Below, piece by piece: positions 21,210 through 60,004 of a stretch of 64,000 nucleotides of DNA. The translations under genes and the position numbers were made by a program. The stretch lies in contig JAJLTO010000001.1 of assembly GCA_030568195.1 (NCBI GenBank), positions 186,001 through 250,000 of the forward strand, in the 5' to 3' direction. This stretch comes from Dipodascopsis uninucleata var. uninucleata (Eukaryota; Ascomycota; Lipomycetes; Lipomycetales; Lipomycetaceae). The notes under the pieces were generated by a model. It ran no database searches. It was not told where the DNA came from and saw only the letters and a program-made list of their open reading frames with translations. Position 1 is the stretch's first letter, and every line of letters starts with the position of its first letter.

Positions 21210-21803
21210 CTCCGCATCTTACTCGTCAGTTCTGTTCGCTCTCAGCATATAACAGAACAGAAAATCCTGGTAAGTCATCTCTTCCCCATCTGCGGACACC
21301 CCGACTATTCGCCGGGCGATCACGCTCAGCACACCTCATTGCCGCAGACTGTCTGCCTCCTTCTGCGTTGCCCTCATTGTGCGTGGCTACGACTGTGAGC
21401 TCGATCCAGCGCAGGGGCTCCTCTTGCGTGGATCTGCTGTTCTGCTTCCAGGCCAGGCGCCCGACGACTTGCAGGAGAGCCCGCGCTGCTGGAATTCGCA
21501 TGCTGTGCATTCCCATGTCTGTCTCAACACGCTGCCTCGTCCTCCGGCATCCTTTGCTATGTCTTAGTGCTTGGTGCGTGCGAGGTAGCTGTTGCATAAG
21601 CTGTATTTGTGCGCTGCACGACAGGAATGCTCGAACTGACCATACTTACTGCGCTTTAACGCTGTCCCTTTCCTGCTTGCTTGCTGCTAGTTCCCGTGCG
21701 CTCTGCTGGTCGTCAGTTCCAAAAGTGTTTTTGCTGAGTCTTGGATCTCATTGATTAATGCATATACTGTTGCTAACTAAAAGTATTTTGTTCTTGCAGA
21801 TCA
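21210..21803 (+). promoter_or_regulatory. Core promoter, 5' UTR and inferred 530-nt leader intron of acetyl-CoA synthetase
   Basis: A pyrimidine-rich tract (about 21100-21240) typical of fungal start regions precedes a GTAAGT donor at 21270. A CTAAC branch site (21773-21777) and TTCTTGCAG acceptor (ending 21799) lie just before the start codon at 21804. This predicts a leader intron 21270-21799 that removes all upstream ATGs in the interval. Inferred from motifs only. Confidence 0.6.
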
Positions 21804-23888
21804 ATGACTACCAACGGAAGTGAGAAGAAGCACGTTGTCGTGCTAGAAGCACACAATGTAGAGTCTATTCCTCCAACTGAGAAGTACTACCAGTAAGTGA
21901 AGTGTCCTGCCGGGAATAATTTTCGCTGGTGCCAGTCAGCTAATTTTTTTGTCGCTCTCTGCAGGAAGCATCCAAGTAAGCCACATATCTCGGGTCTGGA
22001 TGAGTACAATGCTCTCTATAAGGAGAGCATTAACCAGCCTGAGAAGTTCTGGGGCAAGATGGCTGGAGATTTGTTGTCGTTCTCCACTCCTTTCGAACGT
22101 GTTCTGTACGGTGGATTTGAGCACGGTGACGCGTCATGGTTCTTGGGTGGAAAGTTGAACGCTTGTTACAATTGCGTTGACAGGCACGCGCTTGCTGATC
22201 CTGACAGAGTTGCCATTATCTACGAAGCTGATGAGGAGGCAGATTCTCGCAAGATCACATACGGTGAACTGCTTCGTGAAGTCTCCAAGCTTGCTGCTAC
22301 GCTTCGATCGTTTGGCGTTAAGGAGAACGATACTGTTGCTGTTTATTTGCCAATGATCCCAGAGGCTATTATTGCTCTCCTGGCTATTGTTCGTTTGGGT
22401 GCCGTACATACTGTAATCTTTGCTGGTTTCTCATCTGGTTCTCTTACTGACCGTGTAACTGACGCCAACGCGAAGGTCGTCATTACCACTGATGAGGGTC
22501 GTCGAGGCGGAAAGACTGTTTCTACGAAACGAATTGTTGACGAAGCTCTCAAGGACTGCCCAGATGTCAAGCATGTCTTGGTTCACAAGCGAACTGGCGC
22601 TGAGATTCCATGGACTGAGGGCCGCGATTATTGGTGGCACGAAGAGACTGCCAAGTACAGACCATATCTTGCTCCCGTTGATGTTTCCTCCGAGCATCCA
22701 CTATTCTTGCTCTACACTTCTGGATCCACTGGTAAGCCAAAGGGTGTTTTACACACTACTGCTGGCTATCTTCTTGGTGCCGCTATGACTGGAAAGTATG
22801 TATTTGATATTCACCCAGGTGACGTCTATTTCACCGCTGGCGATGTCGGCTGGATTACTGGACACACATATGTTTTGTATGCTCCTCTCCTTCTCGGTGT
22901 TTCTACTCTTGTTTTCGAAGGTACTCCAGCCTACCCAACCTTTTCTCGATATTGGGACATCATTGAAAAGTACCGTGCTACTCAGTTCTATGTTGCTCCA
23001 ACTGCTCTCCGTCTTCTCAAGCGTGCAGGTGATGAATTTATCAACCACGACCTTTCATCTATCCGTACCCTTGGTTCAGTTGGTGAACCAATTGCTCCTG
23101 AGATCTGGCGTTGGTACAATGACAAGATTGGTAAGAATGAGGCGCACATTGTAGACACATACTGGCAAACAGAGACTGGTTCCAATATCATTGCACCATT
23201 GTCTGGTGTTACACCAAACAAGCCAGGTTCTGCTTCGCTTCCATTTTTTGGAATCGAGCCTGCTATTATTGATCCAGTCACTGGAGAAGAGCTCGTTGGT
23301 AACGATGTTGAGGGCGTTCTTGCCATTAAAAAGCCGTGGCCGTCCATGGCTAGATCTGTCTGGAATTCCCATGGCCGGTACATGGAAACCTATTTGCATC
23401 CTTATAAGGGTTACTATTTTACCGGTGATGGTGCTGGACGTGATCACGAGGGCTACTACTGGATTCGTGGTCGTGTTGACGATGTTGTCAATGTCTCAGG
23501 ACATCGTCTTTCCACTGCTGAAATTGAGGCTGCTTTGCTCCAGCATGCTGATGTTGCTGAGGCTGCTGTTGTCGGAACTAATGATGACCTCACTGGACAA
23601 GCTGTCAATGCATTCGTCGTTCTCCGCAACTCCATCGGTGAGTCATCTGCACTTGCTGACATGAAGAAAGATCTTATCCTCACAGTACGTAAGTCTATTG
23701 GACCATTTGCTGCTCCAAAGACGATTGTCATTGTTCCTGACTTGCCAAAGACTCGATCTGGCAAGATCATGCGTCGTATCTTGCGTAAGGTTCTTGCTGG
23801 CGAGGAGGATTCCCTGGGTGATATCACAACCCTCTCTAACCCAAACATTGTTGCTGAGATCATTAGTATTGTTAAGAATCGCAAATAA
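21804..23888 (+). CDS. ACS1: Acetyl-coenzyme A synthetase
   Basis: Two exons, 21804-21892 and 21965-23888, give 670 aa, the usual length. The N-terminus reads [20 protein letters not shown] and the splice joins YYQ to [10 protein letters not shown]. Family motifs in order: [20 protein letters not shown] (AMP-binding P-loop), [51 protein letters not shown], and the C-terminal [13 protein letters not shown] with the catalytic lysine that is acetylated in this family. It makes acetyl-CoA from acetate, CoA and ATP for gluconeogenesis, lipid synthesis and histone acetylation. There is no clear organelle-targeting peptide. Codon use looks strongly biased, as in highly expressed genes. Confidence 0.97.
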
Positions 23889-35909: not shown

Positions 35910-38900
35910 TACTAATGACCATATATTTTCCCTCTGCAGCCTTAGTATTCAACAGTCTACTGCGCAGCCTTAGCGTACATCGTGTTGTGCTGTAGATGGA
36001 TCATCTAGAAGCATACAAAGATGTGTGAAACCTCTGCGTGGACAGTGATTGGGACTATACTGAAATTTACACGCTTTGGACTGTGGTGTACAGTCTACGT
36101 GCGGCTCATAGTTTTCTTAAGTCCATTTGCTAGTCTACAGGGAATAATAGCCTGCATGGCAAAGGAGGACCGAAAGAACAAAAAAGGACTAATATTATAC
36201 CGGAGGACACAAGAGTGATAAGGACTTGCGTATTATTCAAGGAAATAACAGAAAATTTTCCGGCCACGTGGTCACTTGACAGAAACTCTACCTCACTTAT
36301 TTAGCATATCCGAAGAGGTCTTTGTCCATCAGCAGCATAACTTCATGCATAGAAGCATAGATAGCAGAGCTCTTCAGACGAACGGGATATCTAGTCTACG
36401 AGACTGCAGTTGTAGCTGTGAATACTCTATATATTGATACTAGTCTGAATAATTTTGGTTATTTAGTATCCTTGGAATGTACCTATCGTACCTGAACTTG
36501 GAGCTCGCGAACTCAATATAGGTATCAATTATGCTTTGCTCTGCATGCTCATATGATCCCACAGGGGTACACTAAGGCTATCGATAGTCTGGATCAATTA
36601 AAAAGAAAAATGCAGATTTGCATACCTAGAAAAATTCGCTCCATTGACAGCGATCTAGAGATAACTACTGACCTAGGCATTCAAATAGAGTATGAAAATG
36701 CAGGACTCAATAAATGATCCTTAATAATTTATCCGATAGGCCGTTAGCTCCTAAATACTATTACTAAGAAGAGTGTAGCGTCTGTGATATGCAGAATAAG
36801 CTCGCCAATTCGCTCGCATGTGGATGGAAAAACTTTTTGACAGGGGTTCCAATTCACTTGGAAATGGGGCTTTCTATCCATGTTTAGCAGAGTAAGTATT
36901 AAACATGTGCGCGAGTGGCTAGGAGTAAGGCAACTGTCTCATTCTAAAAGTCATTGCCTACACCACACCCCAATAAATTATGTACGTTACAGACGAGACT
37001 GTCTAATACGGATCAATCTGGTCTGTATGGGGTTGTGGAGAGAACTACATGTTCGCACCGTAGTGAAAAGTAGCGCCCTCATTTGCAACCGATCTCGCCA
37101 AAACTCAGGACTACCACTTCCAGGCTCGAAACTTCAATAGAGTGCAGAGGCGGTAGCCCTCTAATAGGGCCACATGCAGCGACCATTCCCGACCGTTTCC
37201 TAGCAGTGAGCGCTTTGTAATATGCGTTCTACTGTGCAGCCTATCGTGTAGAGCGGTATTAGAGACCAAAAGACCAGAAAGTGTATTTATCGCTAAATAC
37301 GCACGCGAATTTATACTCGAGGGAAGAGACGAATCTTACCTTATTGGGTTCAGTAAATGGAAATAGCGTTGCTAGCAGGGGAAATACAGGAACAGATGAT
37401 TAGGGAGATATCGCGTGACGCCGGTAAGATACAGTGGTGCAGCCTTAACAGGATCTCTTTCAGTGCCCATACATGAGACGATACAGTCTCTACACGGCTA
37501 TAGATGAGTCGACTACACGAGGTGGAGATTAAGATATCCAGCAGTCGGGAAAGTTTAGCAGTAGGCGAAAAAGCAAGCGGCGACACGAGATTATGGAAGA
37601 CAGTACGTATCTTGGTTCAAGAAGGTATACTGCCTCAAGTCCAGGGAACCCCAGCCGGGGCCACGCTACCAGGGGTCTCGCTAGCGATGGTGACAGATAG
37701 TGTGTTATTTTGTGGATGAAACGAAAGGAGTCGGCAGATTCCATGTACCAGTTCCACCGAGCGAATTGAGGCAGCAGTCGCGGAAAGGCTGGGCGTAAGT
37801 TCGCGTAGAGTTTACAATGGCCGTGAAATGAAAAGCACATGGTGCACATGGCCAACCTGAACCGGAATGTGTGTATAGATAGCTTGCACGCGGAGACAAG
37901 TGACAAGGACACGACTGCGTAGTTTACACAGATAAAAGCAAGCGGCGCAAGTAGCCTGAGAATTAGGCGCACATGGCTGCCATGAGAGTATAAGCGACAG
38001 GGATTACAGACCACCAGGCAGAGATTTGAACAGGGAAACTCCAGGCTAAGGAGCACAAGCAAGGTATCGTCTAAAGCGAATCTTGGTGTCTGGTTCGATC
38101 TGGCTTTGCTTTTGTTGTCTGGAGAAGACCAGTGCAGGCACGGAGTTCCAAAAGAAGATTCGAGCAGCCAAGGATCTATTAACGTTTTTGAAGTGACATG
38201 TATCTCACACTTTAAATGCCTGCTTAGTCTGAATCTCTTGAAGTTTAAAAAGCACATGGGTTTCTTGTTGTATATAAAGTTCCAGGGAGAAAGTGTACCA
38301 GCGTTGGCTGGAACGTGGAATGCACTCTACACGTGCATGTAACGCTACTGACAAGCAACATGGGCTGGACGCCGCTATACGCCGCACGCATCATCATGCA
38401 TGCGGTTACCAGACTTTTGCAAAATGCGCAGTCGACCGGGATAGTTATAAAAGTAGCTAAATATGCAATCTGTATGCATCTAGGACTCTAGCGCGCACTT
38501 TAATTGTCATGCTATTAGCTTTGACGTGAGACTGAGGCTTGCGTGACCTAAAGAAAATACTTTTAATGCTATTTGTTTTACTTATGATAATTAATTTGGC
38601 TGGACTAACCATGCCGAACTGCGAATAGCTGATCTCTGTACAGAGCATGCCAGGTGCGCGTCGGGCTGCTAAATAAGAGCAATATTTTCGTGGATGCTGA
38701 TGAGCTGGTCCATCCTACGGCGCCAGAAAACATCTGGTCCGCGTACGGAAACGTCCGCTTCAGGGCAGCGACATGCACAGGTGCTCTGGGAGTAAATAAT
38801 GGGCTTGCAGCGGCGGAGGTAGCGTAGACCGAGATTAGATGAACGCAAATTGTAAGCAGGAAAGGGCTAATTAGTGGAGCATAAAAAGAGGAGAACTCAG

Positions 38901-41900
38901 CACGAGAGCAAAACGCTTGAAAAAGAAAAAACACCAAAGAAAATGGGAAGAAAAGTAGCGCGGAAAAAGAAAAACGAAAAAGAAATGGCCATACTGTCGC
39001 AAAAAGATGGCGCTGACCCCTAATCATGCAACCACGTTGCTCCTGGCTCCCAGCCGGTGGAGTGGTAAGCACACAGCGCAGCTGCTAGAGGCGTCAGAAC
39101 ACAGATTCCTCAGCAAATACGCAGAGACACAGCTAGTCCAGACGCAGCGTCGTGGAGCGAGCCATGATCTTCACAATTCGAAAGCTGTCGTAGACTGAGA
39201 GCTAAAGAGCAGCTTATGCTAAGCTCACCACACTCTCGCGTCGACAAAGAGTACCGCCGGGGTTATCGCGTCGCACCTCACAGCGCAAGGCTAGAAAGGA
39301 CACTGTGGTTGGAGCCAGCCAGCCACACTTAGCGGCCAGCCGATTCGCAGCAGGCTCAGCAGCTTTTGACGTTCGCCCGTTACGAGCACTGCACTCTGGC
39401 ACCAGTGCTCTACAGCAGAGAAAATAAGCTAGAAAGCACGAATAAAAAGCTAATGAAAAAGAAATAATATGGCCAAAAAGCCTAGCACGGATGAGCCTCG
39501 GGTGATAAGGGAGAGTTCTACCCTTTCGCTCTATTGCTGTCCGCTACTTTCCTCATTTTGTTCTCGTCTACTGCATTCTACGGCGGCCCTCTGTCCAGAA
39601 CGCCTGTGCTATGCGGGCTCCGTAAATATTTTGCCTGTGCCGACATTCAGGTTCCCAAGAATCTCTACAGAACGAGCGTGCTACAGGCAAAGGAAGCCGA
39701 AGAGAAAACTAAAAGTAAATAGTAGCTAATTAAAAAAGAAGCTAAAATAACACAAAATAACATCAAGCCGAAAAATTTTAGAGAGCCCGGAAGGAAAGCT
39801 AAGCGTGAGGTCAGCGAATACCAGTAATGGTGATATCATTGCGAGCTCCTAGAGATGAGAGTATCTACGGAGGCTGGGTAAAGGAAGATAAAGAGATTAG
39901 CGCTTATTTCTCTCTAGGTCACGTTTCCTTGCCCACCCATAGTTCTTTCCCAGCAAACTGGCAGCCTTCGCTAAGTCCCATCCTCGCCGCTACTGCTCGC
40001 CCTGGCAGCGTTCTCGGCCCCAAGTTCGCGTCTCGCACATCCTCCGAGCATCCAGTTATCTGAGATCAAGCGCGCGAACTCCTGGCAGCGCGCTTAGTAA
40101 GGCAAGCATGGCTCATTGGCCGGCTCGGAGCACTGAAGCGAGTTCGCGTCTATAGCGCAGACACGCAGGAAGTGCGCTGCGAGGACAGCCAGTCCTGCGC
40201 ACGGATTTTGTTCTCAGGTGCCTTTTTGAGGCTTCTCCACTCGCTAGCTGGGGCCTGAAAACTCCGCGAAGCAGACCACTCCGCTCCACGCGATTAAAGA
40301 GCCAGCCGAAATCGCTACCGTGCAGACTAGATCAGCCAAGAGCAGGCTGCTGAGCTTCTCAGCAGCTGCCTAGTATGACCCATGTGAGAAATCTTTAGAA
40401 GCCTCTAGCTGCTCGGATCTTGCCGATTGAAGAATAAGATTTATTCGTCGTGTTTTGTCTCTTGCACTTGCGCGCGCTACCGTATTGCTCTGGTGTAATT
40501 TTCGTTTTCTTGCTAAATATTCTGCTGCAGTGGTAAACCCACTCCTTGTCAGAACGATTTGGAAACTCTAATCTCGTGTCTGAAACTCTGTTGCGTGAGC
40601 ACACAGAGTATCCATCCTCCCTCTTTTTTGTTGTTGCTTTTTGCTGTAGACTGCTTAACCCGCATTCCGCGCCGAGGCACTGTGCATGCGCAGGTGTGGA
40701 TAGGCGCTGGTTCTGCCCAATTTCGCACACGCATGCAGAGCAAGTCGCACACTTTGTGGTCTGAGAGTGTCGACAGCGCGACCCACGGGCACGAGACGCG
40801 CCTGCAGCTAATGCGCGCAGACACTAGTTCTGCTAGTCGCTACAGTTTCCCATGCACGCCCATGCACCGACGCGACCTTCATGCGCGACTGTGCATACTA
40901 CAGGCACTGTAAGTTTATCTTTGCACGCATATGTGCAGCGACGTGCGTGCAAAGAGTGCATGCGTGCACACGTACACCTGGGTAATAAGTTTCTGTGGAA
41001 TAGCCGAAGTCCACAGAGCCAATTAATCATCTAGAAAGCTAGGCGCGATTTTAGGGTGAGGATTCGGCCAAAAAAGGCTATGTTAAGAGAATCGCACGTA
41101 GGTTTCCTTTAGGCCACTTTGAGCTGGCTGGGTCACAGCCATGCTATCGGACGCAGTTCGATGACTGCACAGCGCCCCGAGAATTGGCATGCATTACTCA
41201 CAGACAAGCTCAGTCTACGTGTACTTGCGTCTAGCCCCCGTCGCACCATCGGCTGGCATGGCCAAACCTCGTCGTGCGGCAGCAGTTGTGTGCACAGAAC
41301 CCGCAGGTTACGCGCCTGCGTGTCTTTGCCTCATTTCGGTCTCTGCCGCAGCGGTGTTCTCTGGCTGCTAGCATGCAGGTGAACGTCGCGTCCTATCAGC
41401 AACCTTTTGAACATCTGACTAGAGCGCGCCCGCACGAGAATAGTAGGCATGCCCATGGTTCGTCGGAAAGAGTGGTAGCCGGTAGAGCTACTGCTGATAA
41501 ATGATTGTCGGCGTGCTTTTTATCGTCGCGAAAGTTAGTGCTCTATGCAGGCTAATGTGTGCTCGCCGCAGTCGAGATGCCGGCGCGAACTCTGCTCGAT
41601 GCACTGACCATCCACCCACCTACGCTCCGTACAGTCTCGCACGACGCCTGGTGCGCCCGCGTCCCGGACTGTAGACCTGTTGACGAGCGCAGTCGGTGCA
41701 TCCTGATGTGCGCAGCTGCGGTTCTCGCCAAGCGCCGCATTCTGGCGCTGCCGGACTGCGTAGAAAGCACGGCGTTTGCGTAGACGTCGAGTTTGTGGTT
41801 CGCCTTGAACCTGCTGCTGCTAGGCATGGCTGCACTAGCCACTGGCCAATCTCATGAAATCGTTGATAGGGCAATTAAATTAATTAGAGAGCTAGCAAAC

Positions 41901-43605
41901 CGAGACCAGAGTGAAGAGACAAAGCAACGCCAGAAGGCGAGACATGATGCGAATAGCACAGTCAATTGCACTGTTTCGAGCAAAGCGAGCTCTTTCGCAA
42001 TTTTTATTTTATTTTTAGTTTGTTTATTTTGCTTTCTATCTCCCATACTTTGGTTTTACTATTTTTGCAGCGAGCTGAATGTGAGAGGGAGCAAAAGGGA
42101 ATCTCCACATGAGGGTTGACGCTATATTAGAGGATCGTCAAGTTTGAAACCTCAACGTTTAGGCTTTGGAGCAGGTACACTCTTGAAGCTCTACGATGTG
42201 AAACTAATAGCCTCAAATTAAGTGCTGCAGGCTGGAGATATTAGAATTCGACCAATAGTCCTGGTGCTGTCGCGTGAAATTTATTATTAAAATATGTCAG
42301 ATTTTTAGCGCACTGTAATCCATGTGGTTCAGGATTGTAGAACCAAACAGAGTTATTCCACACCGTAGCTCTCTACGTTCCAGCAGTATCTACTATCACT
42401 ACTACTATCGCTATCATCACTAACATTAATCCTGTTATTACTATCATTATATTGCTATGTCGTGCTCTAGTAGCTAGCAATAGTCGGCTCCTGAAAACGA
42501 CTAAGCACTAGCACACGACCGCAAACTGCACTACCAGGCCTATGCACTTGCGTCCTGCGGTGCCTAGGACCTCGAAAGCCTTGCAAGAAGCCTAGTGTTC
42601 TGGTAGAGACGTGCCGCGTACAGAATGCCGACTGGCACTCTTGCACACCAGGCACGCAGAGCGGTAATCATGCGCGCGCTGTAGACTGCAGCTGTGGACA
42701 GTCAATACCGCTGGCCCATTGAATCATATAGCAGGGTGTTTACTACACAGAATCGGGCTGGCATATCTGCAACCACGACCGATCTCCCAGTACCATCCCG
42801 TATCTTGCTGCTAGCTGCCCTATAAGTTTCTAGTGCATAGACACGATGCTTTTTACGCTTCTTTGCTTTTTGTTGGTATAAAATAAAAGTTCTTGATTGC
42901 TTTTTTGCTGTGAACCTTAATAATAAGCTATTAACGTTCAATGAGCAGTTAAACTTTTCGCGACACATTTGCTTTTCTATGTTTACTTTTTTCGCTGAGA
43001 GTGCGAACTCTAATCGTGCTTCTCTTTACCCGCATCATGTACTTTACATGTATTTTTTTCATCCATTATAGCTAATTGCTACCATACTTTCAGTATATTT
43101 ATTTGCGTACCTACTCCGACTCTCGATCGTCTGTTTCTCTATCGGTCTCATATTTATTCTGAATTCCCTTTTCCCTTTAAAAGTCCGTGCTCATCCTCTC
43201 TCGTCCTATTTTCTTCATCTCATAAGTTCACAGCTGTGCTCAATTCAGCGTGCGCTTTGTCGTCTTCTGTCTAGATAAACTTATTTTGGTCAATATCGAT
43301 CTTGTTTTCCTGCACTGCTTATTTATAGTCCTTGCTTTTCGTCCTGTTTGTCGTCCAATATTCATAACGTCTGAGGAAGCTACTATTGATTTGTATCCCC
43401 AAAAAGACTCTCGAGTATTGTGCTCCTGGAACAAAGTCGTGAAAGCAAGTAGTGTATTTATTGCATTCACTGTTTTTTATTCTTTGAACTATAGCAAGGT
43501 TATCTGCATCGAAACTATCCGGCACTTACTACTGCTGCTTTGTGGGCAGTCAACTTGAGCACGATATACTATACTTAGCTCCGCAAGAACAGCAATTCTT
43601 TAATA
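35910..43605. other. 7.7-kb gene-free region upstream of the Ste11-like regulator
   Basis: No recognisable gene on either strand. The longest frames (for example 37529-38257 minus, 38605-39072 minus) have erratic composition, no domains, and overlap other shadows. A small frame at 36021-36218 (+, 65 aa, one hydrophobic segment) starts with ATG but is unlike anything I know. G+C rises visibly between about 37.1 and 42.8 kb. Purine-rich tracts on the plus strand at 38.88-39.0 and 39.67-39.75 kb (pyrimidine-rich on the minus strand) look like start regions for minus-strand transcripts. Pyrimidine-rich tracts at 43.1-43.25 kb look like the start region of the downstream HMG gene. Confidence 0.55.
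42389..42450. repeat. Imperfect ACT/ATC trinucleotide repeat
   Basis: Degenerate runs of ACT, ATC and TATC units in the gene-free region. Simple sequence, no coding context. Confidence 0.55.
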
Positions 43606-45084
43606 ATGTCCAAAGATCTCCAGTGTTCTTCGAGTGAGATCTCTGATTCCGAATGCGAGACCACTCCGATTATGCAGCCCTCTCTGATAGATAAACCTGC
43701 TAGTGCAGCTGCGCTATGTTCGCCGTTCATATCTAGCAATAAAGTCTCACCTGCAGAGTCTCCTTTGGTTATTACCATCGTTCAAGAAGCTCTTAAGATC
43801 CCACTGTCTCCCATGACACCAGAGAGACGTGAACAGATTATTCAAGCCATTGAGTCCAAGAAAATTCCTGATGTTGTTCTTGACGAAATGATCTTTGTAT
43901 ATGTTCGACGTTCGTCCATACTTAGCTCAGGCTTCAATGCTAAGTTTCTCACTCCAACTGGCAAGCAGAGAAATCGTGGACGTCCTAAGGGCCATGTTAA
44001 GCGACCTTCCAACTCTTTCATGCTCTACAGACGTGTTCAGACCTATCTCTTTCACGCTTCATCGGCTAGTCCAATGTTCCGAGGAATGAGTTTGGGTGAT
44101 CTTGATAAAGTTAACCACCAGTCTGTTTCTGTTATTATTGGTCAGTTATGGAAGACTGAACATCAGAATGTTCGTGATGCTTTTAGTAAGCTTTCTCGTC
44201 GTGAATCGACACTCCATCGTGAACTCCATCCTGATTACAAGTATTCTCCTCAAAAGAAGCAAAAGAACAAAGTTTTCTCGGGACAAGTTCCTGGTTCTAT
44301 GATATCATCTATCAGAGATTTTGGAAAACCACTGTCTACACCCCGTTTCATACTACCGGCTACTTGCAAGCCACAACAGGGGTTGATTTCTATTCCAATG
44401 TCTGTTCCATCGCTGTCTTCATCATCGTCCATTTCTACCTCGTCTTCTATTTCGATAGCGTCCCCAACTTCTTTGACACTTTCCCCAACCGCAGTTCCGG
44501 TTAACAAGATTATTTTCTCTGCGCCATCTTCACCTTCTTCGCCTACCGGATCTATCAGTTCTCCGACAATAGACAACTATCATCATCATCATATACCAGT
44601 CGAGTCCAACCTTACTGATCTTGTCGAGTCGTTTCCGACGCCTCCGCCTGAAGTGTCGTACTTCACGCAATCAATGAATTCCTTTGATCCTGTGGCTCCT
44701 ACGATTTTCTCGACCGGCATTCCAGTCGGTGCCTTACCAAGCAACAGTTCATATTTTACACTACAGTCTGGTTCTTCTGCGAATCTTCCTTACTATAGTG
44801 GTTTAATATCGAAAACATCACCGATTAGTTCTGATTCGTCATCACTGTCGTCATCCTTTTCTGATGAATTGTCGCACTCTACGTCTTCGATTTCGTCGAC
44901 TAGTTCATCGATGTCTATGTCTAGCAATTTTGGAATTGAGCCTGTGAAGACATCGTCTGAAGACAGTTCACGCTATTTTGATATTAATGTACTCAACTGC
45001 AACGGCCAGGCTTTCAATGACTCGTCATTCTTCATTCCCAATGAGACTTCACTAAATGACAAAGTATATTCCAGTTGGTTATGA
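43606..45084 (+). CDS. Ste11-like HMG-box transcription factor
   Basis: Single exon, 492 aa. HMG box at about residues 131-217: KRPSNSFMLYRR, NHQSVSVIIGQLWKTE, then LHRELHPDYKYSPQKK. The pattern NHQS-x-IIGQLW and YKYSPxKK matches fission-yeast Ste11 (and fungal Prf1/Rox1-type relatives) better than MAT-HMG proteins. The box carries about 18 extra residues in the loop after helix 1 (between YRR and NHQS), and an AT-hook-like GRPKG directly precedes it. The rest is Ser/Pro/Thr-rich. Ste11 drives sexual genes and mat genes in fission yeast by binding TTTGTT boxes. Here it lies beside SLA2 and the MAT pair, suggesting a linked sexual regulator; function is inferred. Other HMG subfamilies (Rox1-like repressors) remain possible. 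Confidence 0.82.
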   Translation: MSKDLQCSSSEISDSECETTPIMQPSLIDKPASAAALCSPFISSNKVSPAESPLVITIVQEALKIPLSPMTPERREQIIQAIESKKIPDVVLDEMIFVYVRRSSILSSGFNAKFLTPTGKQRNRGRPKGHVKRPSNSFMLYRRVQTYLFHASSASPMFRGMSLGDLDKVNHQSVSVIIGQLWKTEHQNVRDAFSKLSRRESTLHRELHPDYKYSPQKKQKNKVFSGQVPGSMISSIRDFGKPLSTPRFILPATCKPQQGLISIPMSVPSLSSSSSISTSSSISIASPTSLTLSPTAVPVNKIIFSAPSSPSSPTGSISSPTIDNYHHHHIPVESNLTDLVESFPTPPPEVSYFTQSMNSFDPVAPTIFSTGIPVGALPSNSSYFTLQSGSSANLPYYSGLISKTSPISSDSSSLSSSFSDELSHSTSSISSTSSSMSMSSNFGIEPVKTSSEDSSRYFDINVLNCNGQAFNDSSFFIPNETSLNDKVYSSWL

Positions 45085-46893: not shown

Positions 46894-49800
46894 ATGTCGG
46901 TCCAAAGTGCAAGAGGCCTTGGCCTGGGTAAGGCGGATGCTGACCTGTCGGTATCTATCAAGAAGGCTACTAGTATGGAGGAATCCGCCCCTAAACGAAA
47001 GCACGTTAGAAGTAAGTATCATTGAGTGAAAGGGTGGACATATTGCAATTGATTTGGTAGTGGATTGATTGATCTCGAAGAAAATCAATGTTCGTTTTAG
47101 TGACTAATGAATATCACGTCTTCGTGCGATTGTCTTTCCCGCAGTCGGCCCACCTAAGAGCTCGCCAGTCGTATTTCACGGTTGGTCTGAGTGCAAAGTG
47201 TCACATCTTGTAATTTTCAAGAAGATCATAGCGTCAGCTGCGTGAGACTTTGCTAGGTGGTTTAGCCGTACTTGATAGATTGATAGACGAGTATCAAGGC
47301 GGGAAGACAATTGTATGGTCGACTGTTCGTTACTTTAGGCTGTATCGTATATACATGGGATCATAGATCATCAGCTGCCTTTTGGGCATCTCTTAAGATT
47401 CAGCCTGTTCTAGCTGATGAAGTACAGACATTCAAAGCTTTGATAACAGTACATAGAGTACTACAAGAAGGCCATCCATCGGCTCTCCGGGATGCCCAGA
47501 ATCAGATCGGATGGCTTGAAAGCTGCGCTCGCAGCGTTCATGGAGAGGGTGTTAAAGGTTATGGCCCTCTTATTCGAGAATACGTTGATCTCCTCCTTGC
47601 TAAACTAAGGTTCCACAAAGAGCATCCAGAATTTAATGGAACGTTCGAATATGAGGAGTATATCTCACTGAAGACAATTAATGATCCAAACGAAGGCTAC
47701 GAAACAATTACGGACCTGATGAACTTGCAAACTCATATTGACGGGTTTCAGCGAATAATATTCGCTCATTTTCGTCCCGGATCATCAAATGAATGCCGCA
47801 TTTCATCTCTAGTGGCTCTTGTCCACGAATCTTACGGTATTTATAAATTTATCACTTCGATGCTTCGAGCTATGCACGCTACTACAGAATCAGATGAAGC
47901 ACTTGAACCACTTCGAATTAAGTATGAAGCTCAGCATCATCGTTTGGTTAAGTTCTATTATGAGTGTGCTAGTTTGAAATACCTCACAAGTTTGATTTCT
48001 ATCCCGAAGCTTCCTAGAGATCCTCCAGATCTCTTCAGAGAAGATGATGAGTCTGCTCCATCTCTTCCTCGTCGTCCTCAAGATGGTACCCCTGTGTCTA
48101 GTTCTCCGGTTTCGACACCTGCTCCAGAACCTCTCATTTCCACGAACGATCTTTACCAGCAACAGCTCGCAGCGCAACAGGCTGCATATGAAGAAGAGCA
48201 GCGTCGTTTGGCTTCCCAGCGTGAAGCTGAGCTTTATCAGCAGCAGCAATTAGCCCTTGAGCAGCAGCGCCAGTTTGAGGAACAGCAACATTCAGCTGCA
48301 GAACAGCAACGTCTTGCCCAAGAACAACTCCTTAGGGATCAGCTGCAGCGACAGGCTCAAGGGCGTGTTGCTGAGTTGGAGCGCGATATCCTTGCTCTCA
48401 GAGGGCAATATGATCAAGATCAAATTATGCTAGAACGTTATGATGGTCGCGTAAAGGCGCTAGAGAGCGAGCTACATCAACTAAACACTACTACATCTCA
48501 GCAGTTAACATCAAAGGACGAGCAAATTAAATCACTTCAAGAGCAGCTGGCAACTTGGAAGTCTAAATATGATGCTCTAGCTAAATTATACTCCCAGCTT
48601 CGCAAAGAACATATTGATCTCATGTCGAAGTATAAGGCCATGCAAGTCAAAGCTGCATCGGCTCAAGAAGCTATAGACAGAAAAGAAAAACTGGAGCGCG
48701 AGCTGAAATCAAAGAATCTTGATCTTGCTGATCTTATCAGAGAACGAGATAAGGCTAAGCTGGAACTTGATCGTGTTAGAGGTGGACAGAAAGACGAAGT
48801 CGAAAGACTGCAACGAGAACTCGAAGATGCTAAACTGAAGCAGGATTTAGCTGACCGTTCAAAAGGAACTGAGCTTTCTAATCTTCTTTCACGTCATAAC
48901 AAAGAAATGGAAGACCTTGAGCAGCAATTGTTAGCAAAACAGCGAGCTCTTGACGAACTTTCAGATCGCGTTAAAGGATTTGATGGCGAAGCAGAGAGAC
49001 TTTTGAAGGAGAAGGAGGATGAGCTGGAAGTCTATAAAACTGGTATGGATGAAGCTCTTCTACGCTTGAATGAGCTTACGATGAGTCAAAAGGATACCGA
49101 TGCTGCCATGGACGGTCAGATAGATGGTCTTGTGGTGGACCATATCAACAAGCTAAACTCTATTATCGATGCTGTCTTGCAGTCAGCAGCACAACGTATC
49201 GCTGATGCTATCTATGAGTTAGAATCTCCTATGCAAGCAGGTAATCAAAACTCATCTCCAAGCTATCTTCTTTCCATGGTTGAAAAAGGTTCCGCTACTG
49301 CTACTGACTTTGCGACTGCATTCAACAATTTCCTTGCTGATGGCCCTAATGGTGATCAATCAGAGGTCATAAAATCATCGGCTATCTTTTCTAGTGCCAT
49401 CGCTGACATTCTTATCAATGCCAAGGGTTTGACTCGTCTTGCTTCTGATGAGAAGCGAGCCGATACTATAATTATCGTTGCTCGTGAATGTGCCAATTCC
49501 GCTGAATTATTTTTTACAAACTTATATTCTGATCGGCTAGCACCTCTGACAATAGATCAGCGTACTGACAGAGTTATCTCTAAGAATCTTGATGTTCAGC
49601 GTAACTTACAGAAGCTCACTAAGCTCACAGAAACGTTTGGACCCAAGAAAGGCCAGAATGGACTACTTACGAATGGTGGTGACATTGGTGAATTGGTTGA
49701 TAGAGAACTAAGTAATGCTGCTGACGCAATTGCGAAGGCAAGTGCTCGCTTAGCTCAATTGATGCAGAAGCCAAAGAACCCAGGATTGTCGTCTTTTGAC

Positions 49801-50412
49801 ATGAAGATCCACGATGCTATACTTGCAGCTGCTATTGCAGTTACAAATGCTGTTGCGCAATTGATTAAGGCTGCTACTGAGTCTCAGCAGGAAATTGTTG
49901 CGCAGGGAAAAGGTAGTAGTACAAGGACTGCGTTTTATAAGAAACATAACAGATGGACCGAGGGCCTGATTTCTGCTGCTAAAGCCGTTGCGACATCCAC
50001 GAATGTCCTGATAGAGACTGCTGATGGCGTTATTAATGGCAATAATTCTCTTGAGCAGCTTATTGTTGCATCAAATGATGTGGCTGCTTCAACAGCGCAG
50101 CTTGTCGCTGCCTCCAGAGTTAAGGCGTCTTTCATGTCTAAAACGCAAGAAAAGCTTGAGGCTGCCAGTCGTGCAGTTAATAGTGCTTGTAGAACACTTG
50201 TACGTCAAGTACAGCAGATTTTGGAGCAGCGAGGACTAGGAGATGAATTTGGAGAAAAGATCGACTATAGTAAATTGTCCTCGCACGAGTTCAAGCGAAC
50301 TGAGATGGAGCAGCAAGTAGAGATTCTCAAGCTGGAGAACGAGCTTTCGACTGCACGCAAGAAACTAGGAGAGATCCGAAAAGTAGGTTATCGACAGGAC
50401 GAGGATGATTAG
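46894..50412 (+). CDS. SLA2: Endocytic adaptor Sla2/End4 (ANTH - coiled coil - THATCH)
   Basis: Two exons, 46894-47011 and 47339-50412, give 1063 aa. Exon 1 encodes MSVQSARGLGLGKAD to KRKHVR, and the join yields KHVRSCIVYTWDHRSSAAFW, the start of the ANTH domain (about residues 15-280, with FKALITVHRVLQEGHPSALR). A Gln-rich and then charged coiled coil spans about 330-650. The C-terminal I/LWEQ (THATCH) actin-binding domain ends near residue 1040 (WTEGLISAAKAVATSTNVLI, ELSTARKKLGEIRK). It couples clathrin coats and PIP2 to actin. SLA2 is one of the two classical flanks of ascomycete MAT loci. The 327-nt intron is long, but family alignment leaves no room for another coding exon in it. Confidence 0.96.
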
Positions 50413-52245: not shown

Positions 52246-53742
52246 TTATATATCATACTCACCATCAAATTGAACATTTCCTGCTAGTCCAGTAAAGTCG
52301 CCTAAATCTCGAAACAGTACGTCTAGGTCAACAGTAGGGTCTAGTCCGCCATAACTATTTTGATAGAAATCATCTGAGCTGTTAGAATCGCTAGAACTCA
52401 GAGGGGTGTCACTGTTACTACTGTTCTGGTTACTGCCGCTGCTATTGAAGTAGCTGTAGCCATGATTATTAACATTATTGACACTTCCATTTTTAAGGAT
52501 CTCAGACATCAGGATCTCGTCGTGTGATGAGATTAGAGGTTGCGACGCTGCATTCACGGTCGCAGAGTTGACAGTTATAGTTGGTACAGTAACAGATGAA
52601 TCTATGACTTCTATACTGCTGCCTGTTCCAACTGCATCGTCAAAGCTACAGCTGCTACTGTTACGATAATAGTAGTTGTAATTGTTGCTTTGCTGATTGT
52701 TGATGAAATCAACATCTAGAGGAATTTTCTTTGGAAGCCGCCTAGGCTTTACAGAATCGTTGAGTTTCTTGGCTAGTTCGTCAAGGCCAGGCAGTTTCGG
52801 TGGTACTGTCCGCTCTAAGAGCCAATCAACAAAGCACTTTGATCGTGGTTCCGTACAGTATAGTACAGTATATCGTGACCAGAAATCTTTGTGTTTATAC
52901 GTAGCCCACGTTTTTGACAGATATGAAGAAAGCCTCTGTTGGTGTGTATTAGGCAAAATTCGACAGTAGTAAGCTCTAAAACCAATAAATGCATTTATCG
53001 GTGTAAATCCAGACTTCTTTGGACGTCTGTTCTTTGATCTTGAAGAAACACTGCGTATGCTATTGGTGTTATAACTATTACTTATAATGCTGTTACTGCT
53101 GTTTCTACTGTCGGTAGCGCCATATTCACTATTATTGGTATGCTGATTATCGCCAATTTCTGAAAGTAGTGGAGAGGCAGAATAAGACAATGGTATTATT
53201 GGCTGTCGTGGTGGCGGTGACGGAGAAAAACAGTCGTTTTCACTGTCGCAGTTAGAGGACCATTTGTCAAATCCCATCACAGCGTAGTGACCCCCAACGA
53301 CAGAGCGGGAGACAGCAGAATAAGAAGGATTATTATTCCTACTACCAGCCGTATTTTGCTGATATTTTGCTATCCCTCCTCTGCTAGATTGTTCCGTGGC
53401 CCTGCCGAACTTGATTATATCGCAATATGGCTTAAGAATAGGATTTTTTGTTGCCTGGCGCTTTTTGCGCATAGTACTGGTGCCCGGTCTGTTGCTGTTT
53501 GGTGCTCTATCTTCATTTCTCTCGCCCTCAGCTAAAACCTCTTTGGGATGGATCCTGAGAGCTTGTGGACCGGAATTTCCCTGATAGTATTCTACGCATG
53601 CCGCTGCGTGCTCTGTCCGTACAATGACAGGTGTGTAGCCCGCAGGAATCAGATATATTTGCGCTGAGCGCTCTCTGGCTACCTCTAGCACATCTGAGGA
53701 TGGAACTTCGACTGATGATCCTGGTACTCTGTATGCGTCCAT
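52246..53742 (-). CDS. MAT1-1-1: Mating-type alpha-box protein (MAT1-1-1 / mat-Pc type)
   Basis: Single exon, 498 aa, starting MDAYRVPGSS. The alpha-box (MATalpha_HMG) lies at about residues 245-305: INAFIGFRAYYCRILPN, LSSYLSKTWATYKHKDFWSR, then VLYC. No intron interrupts it. Residues 8-48 form a module shared with the head-to-head MAT HMG protein (ARERSAQIYLIPAGYTPVIV). The C-terminus is Asn/Ser-rich and ends with an acidic, hydrophobic patch (LDVLFRDLGDFTGLAG) that could activate transcription. Alpha-box proteins specify one mating type and work with Mcm1-type factors. The placement of the box, after ~240 residues, is unusual, since in most MAT1-1-1 proteins it is near the N-terminus. The gene symbol is by domain and locus, not by orthology proof. 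Confidence 0.9.
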   Translation of the reverse strand: MDAYRVPGSSVEVPSSDVLEVARERSAQIYLIPAGYTPVIVRTEHAAACVEYYQGNSGPQALRIHPKEVLAEGERNEDRAPNSNRPGTSTMRKKRQATKNPILKPYCDIIKFGRATEQSSRGGIAKYQQNTAGSRNNNPSYSAVSRSVVGGHYAVMGFDKWSSNCDSENDCFSPSPPPRQPIIPLSYSASPLLSEIGDNQHTNNSEYGATDSRNSSNSIISNSYNTNSIRSVSSRSKNRRPKKSGFTPINAFIGFRAYYCRILPNTHQQRLSSYLSKTWATYKHKDFWSRYTVLYCTEPRSKCFVDWLLERTVPPKLPGLDELAKKLNDSVKPRRLPKKIPLDVDFINNQQSNNYNYYYRNSSSCSFDDAVGTGSSIEVIDSSVTVPTITVNSATVNAASQPLISSHDEILMSEILKNGSVNNVNNHGYSYFNSSGSNQNSSNSDTPLSSSDSNSSDDFYQNSYGGLDPTVDLDVLFRDLGDFTGLAGNVQFDGEYDI

Positions 53743-53790
53743 CACCTCTTCTATCTTTCAGCTGCCCAACTTGCTCTTAATTTGTTTCTT

Positions 53791-53807
53791 AGTCTGTTCA
53801 ACAGACT
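53791..53807. repeat. Perfect palindrome upstream of the alpha-box gene
   Basis: AGTCTGTT-C-AACAGACT, 8-bp arms with one central base, 49-65 bp upstream of the alpha-box start codon. Could be a dimer-binding operator or a leader hairpin. The same arm sequence, AGTCTGT/ACAGACT, recurs in the RPN8 intron hairpin. Confidence 0.55.
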
Positions 53808-54119
53808 GATTATAGTCAGCTGGCTGTCTAATGGATGTCAATGAGCGAAAGATGTTCTAAAAAAATTTCGTTACGCCTTGATTCTAAACAAAGTCCGTTC
53901 CCCTTTTTAGTATCGCAGATGGTGTTGTGTAGGTTGGCGATGGTAGCACTGCAAATTCTAACAATCACCACCACCACTCCAACTTGCGATTCATTTGCAA
54001 CAATGGCTGTCTACATTCTGAAATATGGTTGTAACCACGACATCAATTTTGCGTCAGCAACATGTTCATGATACGTTAATGAGATGCTGCATTTGTAGGT
54101 ATATTTTCTGTTTGGCTCA

Positions 54120-54536
54120 ATGGCAGGACTAGCTGCAGGAACAAGCTCACCTCTTAGAAGGGTAGCTATTAGCGCCAGCATCTTTCTAAAATGCCAGGTA
54201 AGTAGGTATTTATATCTTGAGAACGCAGAGCAGAACCATCTAACCTAGATGTATTATAGTCTCTGTATCTGTCATTCTGGTCATGAAGCAATCAGTCAGA
54301 CGGGTTTTGCTGGGTTGTTCGTCCTGATTTATGTCGTGGACAACCACCAGCATTTTTTAGACAAGGCAGCGACGCCAGAAAATAAACATTCGATATATGT
54401 TTGTACTGCACGCGCACATATACGCAAAACAATTAGCAGATTTATAATTGAATTGATTTTCTTCATAGGTCCGGAAGAATTTTTTCAGAAATCAGAAATA
54501 GCTACTGTGAAGTGCTTCACTCGTCTGCAATGCTGA
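54120..54536 (+). CDS. Candidate small spliced gene between the MAT genes
   Basis: Speculative. Exon 54120-54197 starts MAGLAAGTSSPLRRVAISAS and ends at a good donor (CAG|GTAAGT). Acceptor CTAACCTAG leads in phase into an open frame 54249-54536, giving 121 aa with one hydrophobic segment (GFAGLFVLIYVVD). The branch site abuts the acceptor, as in two other introns of this window. I recognise no family, and the C-terminal half has unremarkable composition. It may be chance sequence, a decayed gene, or a lineage-specific MAT gene. Confidence 0.2.
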
Positions 54537-55337
54537 TGAAACTCATAATACCTATGCAGGCACATCCACTGTCAAAAATCAATATCACAGCTTTCAACAC
54601 CACATCTACTGTGATTTTGCATATTAGATGTGTCAAATATTGCTAGAGCACTATAAATAATATTTGCTATTTAAATATCAGAAATTTAGTAAACAGAGGG
54701 TGAATGAGAAAATGGAACATGATGCTCGTTATGTACCAACCTGTGTTAACAGTACAGACGTATGGTCTGAGACCTGATAGTTTGGGACGGCGACAGTGTG
54801 GTCTATCATATACTAGCTAGGATGTTGAACTGATGACCGGGTTCCCTGGAATGTGATTTTAGCCATGGACAGGCATTCTAAGTGGAAGAGTGAGGATATA
54901 TATATCACGAGCAAAATTAGATGACCATCTAGGTGAGAATGGCGATGGGCCACAGTCAATGATACAACCTTGACCGTAGCGCATGCAAGGATTTGGTCAG
55001 TACTACCACCCTCAAGCCTGCATTGCTATTATAATTATTTTTTCCTTTCCCACTAAAAGGGGAACAGACTTTGTTTTGTATCAAGGCGCATCTGGATCTT
55101 TTTTGCTCTTTCTTTTCAATTATTTCTACGGACCCTGCTCTCTTTCTCTTTCCCTAGTGCATGCTCCCTGGCTATTTTTTTGACTGACCTTAGTGCACCG
55201 CCGCCTGGTATACATATCTACTGCGCTTTGCCTTCTTTTTCCTTCTTCTCTGTCTCTACTAGCTCGTTTTCTTAAGACTTTTCTATTCTGCAGTACCTGG
55301 CATTTTTGTTATATTTACAGTCAGTACAGGCATCACC

Positions 55338-56600
55338 ATGGAGGTCAGCACGATTGCAGGTTCGTCAATCGAAATCCCTTCATCGGAAGTCATCCAGCTG
55401 GCGCGAGAGCGCTCAGCTCAGATTTACCTCATTCCAGAGGGATATACTCCAATTTTTCTCCGATCAGATGATGCTGCAGCACTCAACATACAGAATGCAG
55501 TCCTTTGGGAGCCAGAAAACTACAATGGACAATCCAGAGATTTTGACATACATTCTGGTCGCTTCTCGTCGCCATCCATATCCCACAGTGGAAGTACTGA
55601 TGAGAATGACTTCTATGCAAAATCTGGTGACAGCGTTCGACCTTGTTTGGCTGGAGCTAGCTCTGCATGTAGAATCTCAAAAGGATCGTCAAAGACTACT
55701 AACTCAAAGAAGTCCAAAGCCTTGATTGCTAAGGTTCCCCGTCCGCGTAATGCTTTTATTATTTATCGCGGCGAGAAGCACCACGAGGTCATGAAGAGAG
55801 GCGATATTACTAACACTAGTGCTTCTAGAGTTATAGCACAGGTATGGTGTTCAGATAGATTTGGTCTTTCTTCTTATTTACTATACACTTGTTTCTCCTT
55901 ATTATTTATAATTTGTTTGCATTCTTTATTTTTTTTTAGTTTTTTGATACTGCCTCTTATCTGTTTCGGCTCTTTTTCCCTCTATTTTATTTTAATGTCT
56001 CTTCTTTTCGTGGTCCCTTATACTTACTAACTTTTATTCGAATAGATGTGGAAAGAAGAGCTTCCTCATATCAAAGCTTACTATCAGAATCTAGCTTTAG
56101 AGGAAAGCCTACAGCATAAGCTTCAACATCCGGAATATCGGTATAGTCCGAGAAAACCTGGTGAGAAGCAGAAAAGAGCACGAAGAAGACCTCTAGATGT
56201 TTCAAATTACTTGAAGGATAACAAAGGCGATACTTCTGACTCTAGTGATTCAAGATCCTTTAATGATGCCTTTTCTTATATGAGCTCAGAAGAGAGCGCT
56301 ACGTGTAGTCCTAGCGTACTTTCTGATGCTAGTCCACGAGAGCCTGCTAGGCAAATCCCATCATCGGTTTCTATTATGCAAACTACTGCTGTGCCATTAT
56401 CTCAGCCACGGACATTCTCTAGTGAATTATATAACTGCCCTGGCTTTCCTTACTACTTTGAAGTCGATGGTACGCAGAGTCACAGTAATGGCACGAGCCT
56501 TGACAATAGTAACGAGCGCACAAAAAGCAACACTAGCTGTGGCAGCGACAATAGTAACAGTAACAATAATATATCGTCTGCTAGTGAGTCTTCTTTCTAA
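55338..56600 (+). CDS. MAT1-2-1: Mating-type HMG-box protein (MAT1-2-1 / mat-Mc type)
   Basis: Two exons, 55338-55841 and 56046-56600, give 352 aa. HMG box at about residues 133-205: VPRPRNAFIIYRGEKHHEVM, ASRVIAQ|MWKEELPHIKAYYQ, HPEYRYSPRKPGEKQKRARR, a typical MAT_HMG signature. A 204-nt intron cuts the box between Gln and Met-Trp (branch TTACTAAC, acceptor AATAG), and introns inside the MAT HMG box are a known hallmark. Residues 8-48 are homologous to the N-terminus of the alpha-box protein (ARERSAQIYLIPEGYTPIFL). From memory, fission-yeast mat-Mc has a similar AAYFVPDGFTPILI motif. The tail is Ser/Asn-rich. It would specify the opposite mating type to its neighbour. Confidence 0.94.
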
Positions 56601-57272: not shown

Positions 57273-59313
57273 TCAAGTACACCATTTAAAATACGAGCAT
57301 CGAAATTCACGGTTAGTATTTGCCCTGGATCTTCCGTTTCGCTCATATCCTGGACCAATTGGTCTAGATGTCATACAAATTATGTTAGTTAATATCCAAT
57401 TTACCCATATCACTAGGTGAAATAAATACAATCACAAATCCAACTAACCTTGCGCAAATCCAAAATGCTCGTCCCTGGTTAATTCCTGCTTTTTTTGTCG
57501 TCATTTGAATACATGGTTCATTATGCCCTGAACAATTTGGTGGTTTTGGCTTTTCAAATATTTTTCGCCAATCTCTGTTGATGTTGATAGTAGAGGTGAC
57601 TGTATCACCACTGTTTCGCTCCGATGCTCTCAAATTGGCAGGTTTATTAGATGATGACTCTAGCTCGAGTTCCGCCATCATGGCTTTGTGGCATTCCCAT
57701 GCTAGCCTCTCGTCATCTTCTAGTGATTGAGCCTCGTTATCCCTGGACATTGATTCCATTGCTTCAGGCTCCATTAATACTGGTGAAGCTTTCTTGAAGA
57801 AACTTGTAAGGCGTTTCTGTCCATTGCCAGAACGCTCTGGCGAGCTATCGCCAGTGTTATTGTGGCTATATTTTCGTTTTATAGAAGCACGCTGTTGTTT
57901 AGATAGTGACTGTTCACCCTGACGCAGGGATTTTTCAGTTACCGCAGGAGTAGATGATGCTTCTATTCTGTCAGAACTTTGTAAACAGTCTTCTTGCTTC
58001 GTTTCTGATTTCGATTCAGTTAGAGAAGATGACTTTTTTAAGCCTGCAGCAGCAAACATTTCCTTTATACTGCGTCTACCATTGAATTCAGGCAGGAATT
58101 TCGATGCCAACTTTGGCGTTGATGAAGGTACTGCCATGATCTTGTCACGGAAGCCACCACTGCTAGTTTTAGTCATTTCAGATGAAGACAATCGCAAATC
58201 GGCATAAACAGGACAGTGATCAGAACCTAAAAGATCCGGCCGAATATCTGCATTCTCAAAAAAGGAACTTAATCCTTTACTGGCAAGAATATAATCTATC
58301 CTAGATCCTTCGTAGATACCATTGCAGTCAGTACATCTTGTTCATGTATTATATAGCAACTATCACTTACCATAATTTCCCGGACGAGCATTGAGCTTTT
58401 GATTCCAGCAAGTAAACATTCCCTCTCTGTCAGGAAACTGTTCACGGCATAGATCAACCATAACACCATTTGGATGAGGCACTAGAAGCTCATCCAAGAG
58501 CTGCCGCGCATATGTTGCCTTGAAGTCTTGTAGTCCTTCTTCTATCATCCGTTCATCTGCTTCAACAGTGTCGATCTTGTCTCTGCATATATTCAAATCA
58601 CCCATTAAAATGACTTCTCTCTTTTCTTCTTCGATGAGTCGTCTAACACGAGTAAAGAGAGCAGTTAAAAATGCTGCCCTGTAGGCATCGCGATCTGCTG
58701 TAGCCGAATTCGCAGGACAGTATACGCCAATCAAAATAAAGGCATCAAGATCAAGTATCAGTGTTCGACCTTCATTATCTAGCAACCTGGCTTCTGATTC
58801 TCCCAGAGATTCGTCATAGGCACCTATGCAATTTGGTAGCTCACGATACTTTTTCCCTCCTGAGAGTGGTGCATCTAAGATGCCAGTAATTCCCTCCTCA
58901 GCACGGCAAGGTCGGCATATAGAATTCCTTGTATATATTGCTACACCTGAGTAACCGCGCTTTACCTTAGAAAAACTGAAGAATGATTCAAATCCAGGTA
59001 CAATGGCCATGTCGGCGTCCACATCTTTTCGTTGTATTTTTGTCTCTTGAAAGCAGATTATGTCTGCCTTTAGCAGGTCGAACATTGCAGCGAACGACTT
59101 TTCCTCGTTCCACGGATGGTACTGTAATACATTGCGTATTCCACATATATTGAATGTTACAAATCGTAGCCGATCAGGAAGTTTGACGTTATCATTGTCT
59201 TTGGATGACTGCTGTTCTTTCTTAGAATCAGTAGAGGATACAATAAGCGAACTCATTGTCGTATCGTCATCTTTCTGTGACATGTCATGTATAGGACGTC
59301 GAGCTACATTCAT
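57273..59313 (-). CDS. APN2: AP endonuclease 2 with GRF zinc finger
   Basis: Three exons, 58371-59313, 57449-58307 and 57273-57363, give 630 aa. The exonuclease/endonuclease/phosphatase domain has FVTFNICGIRN, ADIICFQETKIQR, KRGYSGVAIYTR, LMGDLNICRDKID, and the splice-built NARPGNYGSRIDYILAS, then LLGSDHCPVYAD. A linker with a PCNA-box-like QKRLTSFFKK follows. The C-terminal GRF finger (PPNCSGHNEPC, RAFWICARPIGPGYERNGRS, FRCSYFKWC) is completed only by exon 3. It repairs abasic sites and 3' blocked ends in the nucleus. The N-terminal ~47 residues before RLRFVTF exceed the usual start, so the true ATG may be internal. APN2 is the second classical flank of ascomycete MAT loci. Confidence 0.95.
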
Positions 59314-60004
59314 AATAAAACCCCATAGTATAGCTCAGTGTTTTTTGTTTATACTTTATCTTTATCGTAGAGCAGTTCAGAAGAGCTTGTAAAGACAGGC
59401 TATCGGTTATCTAGCAATTGTGAAAAACATAAACTATCAAGACTATTAATATTGAGACGCATTCACTTTTTATCTTTCACTTTACACCACATACGGGTAA
59501 ATAATAACAACATAAAAGCTGACTCTGCTCTTAGATTCCAGACTTGCTCTATAGATATCTTATAACACCTACGGAATAGAATATTATCTTAAAAGATTCT
59601 TAAATGGCAGAAAACACATATATTAAATCATGTGCTCGAATCAGCTTTACAAGGCAGACACGAGGTAGAATAACCCAAAAAACAAAAAAAAATACATGGA
59701 CTAGAAAAGAATTAACAAAGATACGAATTAAAGAACCAAAAAGGAAAACAAACAGTAAATGTAGTCGAAGAGAAGACCAATCGACCTTTCAAAAAAACAA
59801 AAGAAACAACACAACAGAGATCAAAATGCATACAACTCGCATATCAGCCGATCTTACAAAATAAAATAATAATTTTGAAAATTCATAACAAAAACGATGG
59901 CATTCACTCTTTATACTAATAAATCTACATGGACAGAGAGGAAAGGACACCAGATAGACCTTACCATCCTTTGCCGTCTCGCTCAGCTAAAATATGGCAT
60001 TTTC
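59314..60004. other. Intergenic A-rich region upstream of APN2
   Basis: About 0.7 kb. A-rich on the plus strand (T-rich in APN2 orientation) between 59.6 and 59.9 kb, as expected for a minus-strand promoter and the 3' end of SNX3. The Lys/Thr-rich frame 59604-59864 is a by-product of the A-richness. Confidence 0.55.

Follow-up and report, generated by a model that had tools for sequence, protein, structure and literature searches.

The mating-type locus

The DNA considered here is a stretch of 64,000 nucleotides (nt) from Dipodascopsis uninucleata var. uninucleata (contig JAJLTO010000001.1, positions 186,001 to 250,000 of the forward strand), called the window below and numbered from its first letter. 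It contains a contiguous ascomycete mating-type (MAT) locus with SLA2, an alpha-box gene (alpha1), an HMG-box gene and APN2, in that order. Analysis of the two MAT genes revealed that their proteins begin with the same module of 48 residues and that one short element lies, in inverted orientation, upstream of both start codons. The features are listed in Table 1.

Table 1. Positions of the mating-type genes, their shared parts, the flanking genes and a further HMG-box gene in the window (E, expectation value; aa, amino acids; ORF, open reading frame).
Feature	Position	Strand	Evidence or remark
MATalpha1-type (alpha-box) gene	52246-53742	-	Single ORF, 498 aa
Alpha box, residues 229-295	52858-53058	-	PF04769, E 1.5e-10, 41.2 bits (cut-off 28.1)
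Module in alpha1, residues 1-48 (dense part 8-48)	53599-53742	-	BLASTP against HMG protein
Upstream element of alpha1	53859-53907 (core 53874-53907)	-	49-nt inverted repeat; AACAAAGTC on + strand at 53887-53895
Upstream element of HMG gene	55055-55103 (core 55055-55088)	+	Partner of the 49-nt inverted repeat
HMG-box gene (MATa2 / MAT1-2-1 type), exon 1	55338-55841	+	ORF; donor GTATGG at 55842
Module in HMG protein, residues 1-48	55338-55481	+	BLASTP against alpha1
HMG gene, predicted intron inside the HMG box	55842-56045	+	GTATGG...TACTAAC...TAG
HMG gene, exon 2	56046-56600	+	Second half of the HMG box
SLA2, conserved MAT-flanking gene	47719-50412 (frame open from 47287)	+	I_LWEQ, E 5.1e-61; ANTH, E 1.8e-26
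APN2, conserved MAT-flanking gene, two reading frames	57385-59334	-	Exo_endo_phos, E 3.3e-13 (58363-59313)
HMG-box gene, HMGX-like or Ste11-like, outside SLA2	43606-45084	+	PF00505, E 3.4e-7

Both MAT genes lie between the two flanks that mark an SLA2-APN2 mating-type locus, and the flanks are recognised by their Pfam domains. The alpha box scored above the curated cut-off of its family, as expected of MATalpha1 / MAT1-1-1. The two exons of the HMG-box gene, taken singly, each hold half an HMG box and did not reach the cut-off of Pfam (E 0.018 and 0.0085). Removal of the single intron gives a protein of 352 aa with a complete PF00505 box at residues 134-200 (E 1.4e-11, 45.1 bits against a cut-off of 25.4), as expected of a mating-type HMG protein. 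The intron was placed from sequence signals, and the box that is completed on joining the exons argues for the predicted boundaries. The joined protein also matched a presumed fission-yeast Mc sequence (E 2e-16), but a presumed Ste11 fragment too (63.5 bits); a tentative placement of its box in the MATA subclass draws support from its position at the MAT locus. A six-frame motif scan of the window found no convincing recognition-helix motif of a homeodomain mating gene (a1, alpha2), one of which an intron could hide. The locus looks like one with a two-gene MAT content and a yeast-like TACTAAC intron. An imperfect palindrome of 22 nt (91%) was observed at 52981-53002, inside the alpha-box coding region.

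The shared N-terminal module

Residues 1-48 of alpha1 and of the HMG protein align without gaps, with 29 of 48 positions identical (BLASTP E 3e-17, one-against-one comparison). Identity is concentrated in residues 8-48, where 28 of 41 positions agree, again ungapped, and the similarity between the two proteins ends at a single point, residue 48. The local alignment score of the N-termini was 162; the maximum in 1000 shuffles was 65. A first-pass annotation of this DNA had reported the 28 of 41 identities, the common start residue and the coordinates of the module, all of which were reproduced by re-alignment. Its proposal that the two N-termini are homologous is strongly supported by the E value and the shuffle test. 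Chance resemblance was ruled out by these two results together with the controls on the upstream block given below. The module occurs nowhere else in the window; the next tblastn matches had E values of at least 0.13.

Analysis of the codons revealed how the two copies have changed. Codons 8-48 of the two genes agree at 30 of 41 first, 40 of 41 second and 13 of 41 third positions, and four-fold sites in codons with the same first two bases agree in 4 of 20 cases. The NG86 method gave a nonsynonymous divergence (dN) of 0.16 and no finite value for the synonymous divergence (dS). The pattern of codon-position matches, taken with dN and dS, indicates that selection has long preserved both modules as protein in the same frame. 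The copies are old, since third positions and four-fold sites show that silent sites are saturated. A recent duplication of the module was ruled out by the four-fold sites, in agreement with the first-pass view that the module is not a fresh duplication. Both N-termini appear to be translated and constrained; the doubt that one of them might be untranslated is unlikely to apply to the module, given the same-frame codon-position constraint in both genes.

The inverted element upstream of both genes

The likeness of the two genes extends beyond the coding region. Both start codons are preceded by a matching block in inverted orientation, which goes beyond what the first-pass annotation had observed; it consists of a 49-nt inverted repeat at 82% identity with a 34-nt core at 91% identity (E 1.5e-7). 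The part of the inverted match that lies in the ORFs covers 94 nt at 71% identity and has the same E value as the core. The score of the upstream element was 55, a value reached by none of 1000 simulated pairs (maximum 46) and by none of 923 real pairs taken elsewhere in the window (maximum 33). No other strong inverted match was found between SLA2 and APN2; the next one (E 0.012) is a local palindrome. Because silent sites in the ORFs are saturated, a promoter block that is still 91% identical over 34 nt is best read as constrained.

The element includes AACAAAG, a weak and imperfect Ste11-type site. The 9-mer AACAAAGTC is found upstream of both MAT genes and of the HMG gene at 43606-45084 (site at 43430-43438), and a further site at 25175 lies inside another ORF. 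Another part of the element, GAACRGACT, occurs four times in the window against 0.71 expected; its places include position 17867 in another ORF and an arm of a near-palindrome situated in the alpha1 leader. This near-palindrome (53791-53807, 17 nt, with an odd centre base) repeats GAACAGACT of the shared element in one of its arms.

Sites of this form are documented in other ascomycetes. Ste11 of fission yeast binds imperfect boxes of the AACAAAG form only when Mat1-Mc is present (PMC1693924). The Podospora protein PaHMG5, described as the SpSte11 ortholog, binds (A/G)ACAAAGAA probes from both mating-type genes (PMC3730723). The window resembles these two systems in having AACAAAG upstream of both MAT genes and a further HMG gene (PMC1693924, PMC3730723). 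It differs from them in that its site is an imperfect and putative Ste11 box.

The HMG gene at 43606-45084

The protein of this gene matched 17 PDB sequences, with SOX-2 as the best match (E 1.7e-5). Its box scored 53.9 bits against the HMG protein of the MAT locus. Against presumed sequences of a Ste11 fragment and of Mc it scored 61.6 bits (39.6%) and 53.5 bits, respectively. Ste11-like is used as a working label for the product. The protein does not carry the module, as the three best matches listed for each pair of this protein and a module had E values of at least 2.2. The AACAAAGTC site upstream of the gene lies at a distance of about 170 nt. The product is a candidate for a shared partner or regulator of the two MAT genes. 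The gene recalls those called HMGX, which six of nine Lipomyces species with sequenced genomes possess, in part at MAT, and whose function is described as unknown (PMC6692504); the HMGX genes may be relatives of Ste11.

The module in other sequence collections and its predicted structure

Searches of Pfam and NCBIfam with the module listed no family at E values up to 10, a range in which the search filters discard most matches above about 0.1. The alpha1 module had no match among PDB sequences at E 10, and so no known domain family was found for the module in Pfam, NCBIfam or PDB. Pattern searches gave 23 matches in the viral contigs of IMG/VR and 41 in the prokaryote genomes of GTDB, none of which was confirmed; both collections are non-fungal and say little about fungi.

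Comparison with mating-type proteins was made with presumed sequences. A profile of the two modules matched residues 44-55 of the presumed fission-yeast Mc (E 1.4e-5), a single comparison that serves as a lead only and gave the one match of the module outside this DNA. The core Y-x-x-P-x-G-[YF]-T-P lies upstream of the HMG box in the presumed Mat1-Mc, as it does here, and the rest of the module was unaligned in the profile match. A separate ungapped comparison with the same presumed Mc sequence scored 45.0, where 2000 shuffles reached at most 42.5; this is likewise a lead and not a test. In BLASTP searches against that sequence, the matching stretch of alpha1 was listed at E 0.023, and the search with the HMG protein listed no match in the module. 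The presumed sequences of Saccharomyces cerevisiae MATalpha1, Neurospora crassa mat a-1 and partial mat A-1 fell under the inclusion threshold in single comparisons (E 0.034, 0.085 and 0.093, respectively).

AlphaFold was run twice on two-row alignments. The structure prediction proposed in the first-pass annotation gave two helices that recurred in both models, at residues of about 15-24 and 43-54; a single model also had strands, at 27-31 and 38-42.

Comparison with known mating-type loci

Comparison with published loci revealed both likenesses and differences. The contiguous homothallic loci of PHC type in budding yeasts, for example in Lipomyces, likewise have adjacent alpha1 and HMG genes flanked by SLA2 and APN2, with an extra HMG gene near (PMC6692504). 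The PHC Lipomyces loci, however, have all four canonical MAT genes (PMC6692504), whereas the six-frame motif scan of the window, in which an intron could hide a motif, found no convincing homeodomain motif and so did not bear out this four-gene arrangement. The window has its extra HMG gene on the outer side of SLA2, and the section on Lipomyces in PMC6692504 does not describe a shared 5' end.

The first-pass annotation regards MAT idiomorphs as normally unrelated, a premise that should be put less strongly. Opposite idiomorphs are known to be partly homologous in Magnaporthe (MAT1-1-3 and MAT1-2-2) and in Ophiostomatales (a truncated MAT1-1-1) (PMC3583454), a 250-bp repeat of MAT1-1-1 is described in Sclerotinia (PMC3574095), and the alpha box has been assigned to the HMG superfamily, close to MATA_HMG (PMC2999568). 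As in Magnaporthe, Ophiostomatales and Sclerotinia, pieces of one MAT gene are found here in or near the opposite one (PMC3583454, PMC3574095). The present case differs in that an alpha-box gene and an HMG-box gene, each with its DNA-binding domain, have an in-frame N-terminus and a promoter element in common. Among open-licence papers, judged mostly by their listings, we recognised no description of an N-terminus and promoter element common to alpha-box and HMG-box MAT genes that both have their DNA-binding domains.

Origin and function of the shared 5' ends

Overall, our analysis slightly favours the explanation (probability of about 0.55) that the alpha1 and HMG genes share a copied 5' end, made up of the promoter element and the first 48 or so codons and arranged head to head. 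The 5' end of one MAT gene would have been copied onto the other by inverted duplication or by a gene-conversion-like transfer. After copying, silent sites in the ORFs would have become saturated and selection would have retained the protein module and the promoter element. The element may place both genes under one HMG-type activator, a common input. The module, predicted as a helix, possibly two strands and a helix, could be a docking surface for either DNA-binding protein, and both N-termini could recruit a common co-activator, a common output, most likely an HMG protein of the Ste11 type. A partner common to both N-termini is plausible, and the product of 43606-45084 would be the leading candidate both as activator and as co-activator. 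What the analysis demonstrates is that both parts are homologous, constrained, inverted and old; how and in which direction the transfer took place, what binds the element, the docking and the partner's identity are inferred.

Opposite mating-type proteins are thought to set different programmes through different DNA-binding domains. If the explanation is true, both master regulators would use a common input (the same activator) and a common output machinery (the same co-activator). It would also offer a sequence handle on the joining of two idiomorphs in a homothallic fungus, and the non-DNA partners of alpha1 and of Mc-type proteins would become testable. A more far-reaching version is speculative and unlikely as a whole: the module would be an ancient docking domain that HMG mating proteins of ascomycetes, fission-yeast Mc among them, possess and that moved with its promoter to the alpha-box gene of this lineage; the two mating types would then recruit one Ste11-like partner and differ mainly in the DNA-binding domain.

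Several observations weigh against a copied 5' end with a common input and output. The distance from the element to the start codon is unequal (132-165 nt in alpha1, 250-283 nt in the HMG gene), and no similarity was found between the stretches that separate element and start codon in the two genes. The four occurrences of the 9-mer AACAAAGTC in the window, where 0.9 are expected and 1 of 100 shuffles has four or more, speak in favour of a common input, but the motif was picked after looking at the data and the support is weak; a shorter motif, CTTTGTTY, shows no enrichment (6 in the window, 5.9 expected). The AlphaFold models are poor, with mean predicted local distance difference test (pLDDT) scores of 58.0 and 57.9, and the strands differ between them as described above. 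The HMG protein of the MAT locus matches the presumed Ste11 fragment equally well in bits (63.5 bits, 34.9%), which makes the Ste11-like identity of the 43606-45084 product uncertain. The direction of the transfer leans on the presumed Mc sequence.

The main rival to copying, an unlikely and still serious contender, is a common 5' end of the idiomorphs. A heterothallic ancestor would have had its idiomorph border inside both genes, so that the promoter and first codons were common to both, and homothallism would later have set the copies head to head. Such a border accounts jointly for the promoter, the start codon, the module and the stop of similarity at residue 48, and partly homologous opposite idiomorphs are reported, for example MAT1-2-2 and MAT1-1-3 in Magnaporthe (PMC3583454). 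However, silent sites are saturated and the sequence from the element to the start codon finds no match between the two genes, both of which demand a long separation. The inverted arrangement of the copies, their identical start residue and the match of the promoter blocks speak more for a copied or a common idiomorph 5' end than for vertical retention. Among the origins considered in the first-pass annotation, the upstream block speaks for an inverted duplication of the 5' ends, and a simple common ancestor of both genes is less favoured.

Vertical descent, in which both classes of MAT gene, alpha-box and HMG-box, would stem from one ancestor and retain its N-terminus, is improbable. In its favour, the alpha1 domain has been placed closest to MATA_HMG (PMC2999568). 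The match of the presumed Mc to the module core is a further lead in this direction, but the modules of the window (28 of 41 residues) are far closer to each other than to that sequence, in which a core of 12 residues aligns, and the other presumed mating-type proteins fell under the inclusion threshold. A promoter block at 91% identity is, moreover, unlikely to last over such an age. Flip/flop switching, with the shared 5' ends serving as recombination arms, is very improbable. Inverted arms are present, but they sit between the genes, and recombination would invert the spacer only and leave the MAT genes unmoved; coding arms at 71% identity with saturated silent sites also speak against ongoing exchange. 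A locus of the FF1/FF2 type would have inverted repeats on either side of its MAT genes; between SLA2 and APN2, the region in which such repeats were looked for, strong inverted matches are confined to the divergent 5' ends, and these do not enclose the genes. A chance or convergent likeness of short N-terminal motifs has a negligible probability in view of the E value, the shuffle scores and the separate upstream match.

Other features of the window

In the APN2 region, 57385-58176 showed a GRF zinc finger (E 3.6e-4) under the cut-off of that family. SLA2 had no match in phage records, as expected. Scans for tRNA and Rfam families found one tRNA-Ala in the window and nothing at MAT. Two ORFs of a higher-GC, gene-poor stretch, at 37529-38257 and 38605-39027, had no Pfam match and were the only two scanned there. 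Almost no internal repeats were found at 18000-22000 and 36000-43000, where the GC content in 2-kb steps is about 0.45-0.55, compared with 0.416 for the window.

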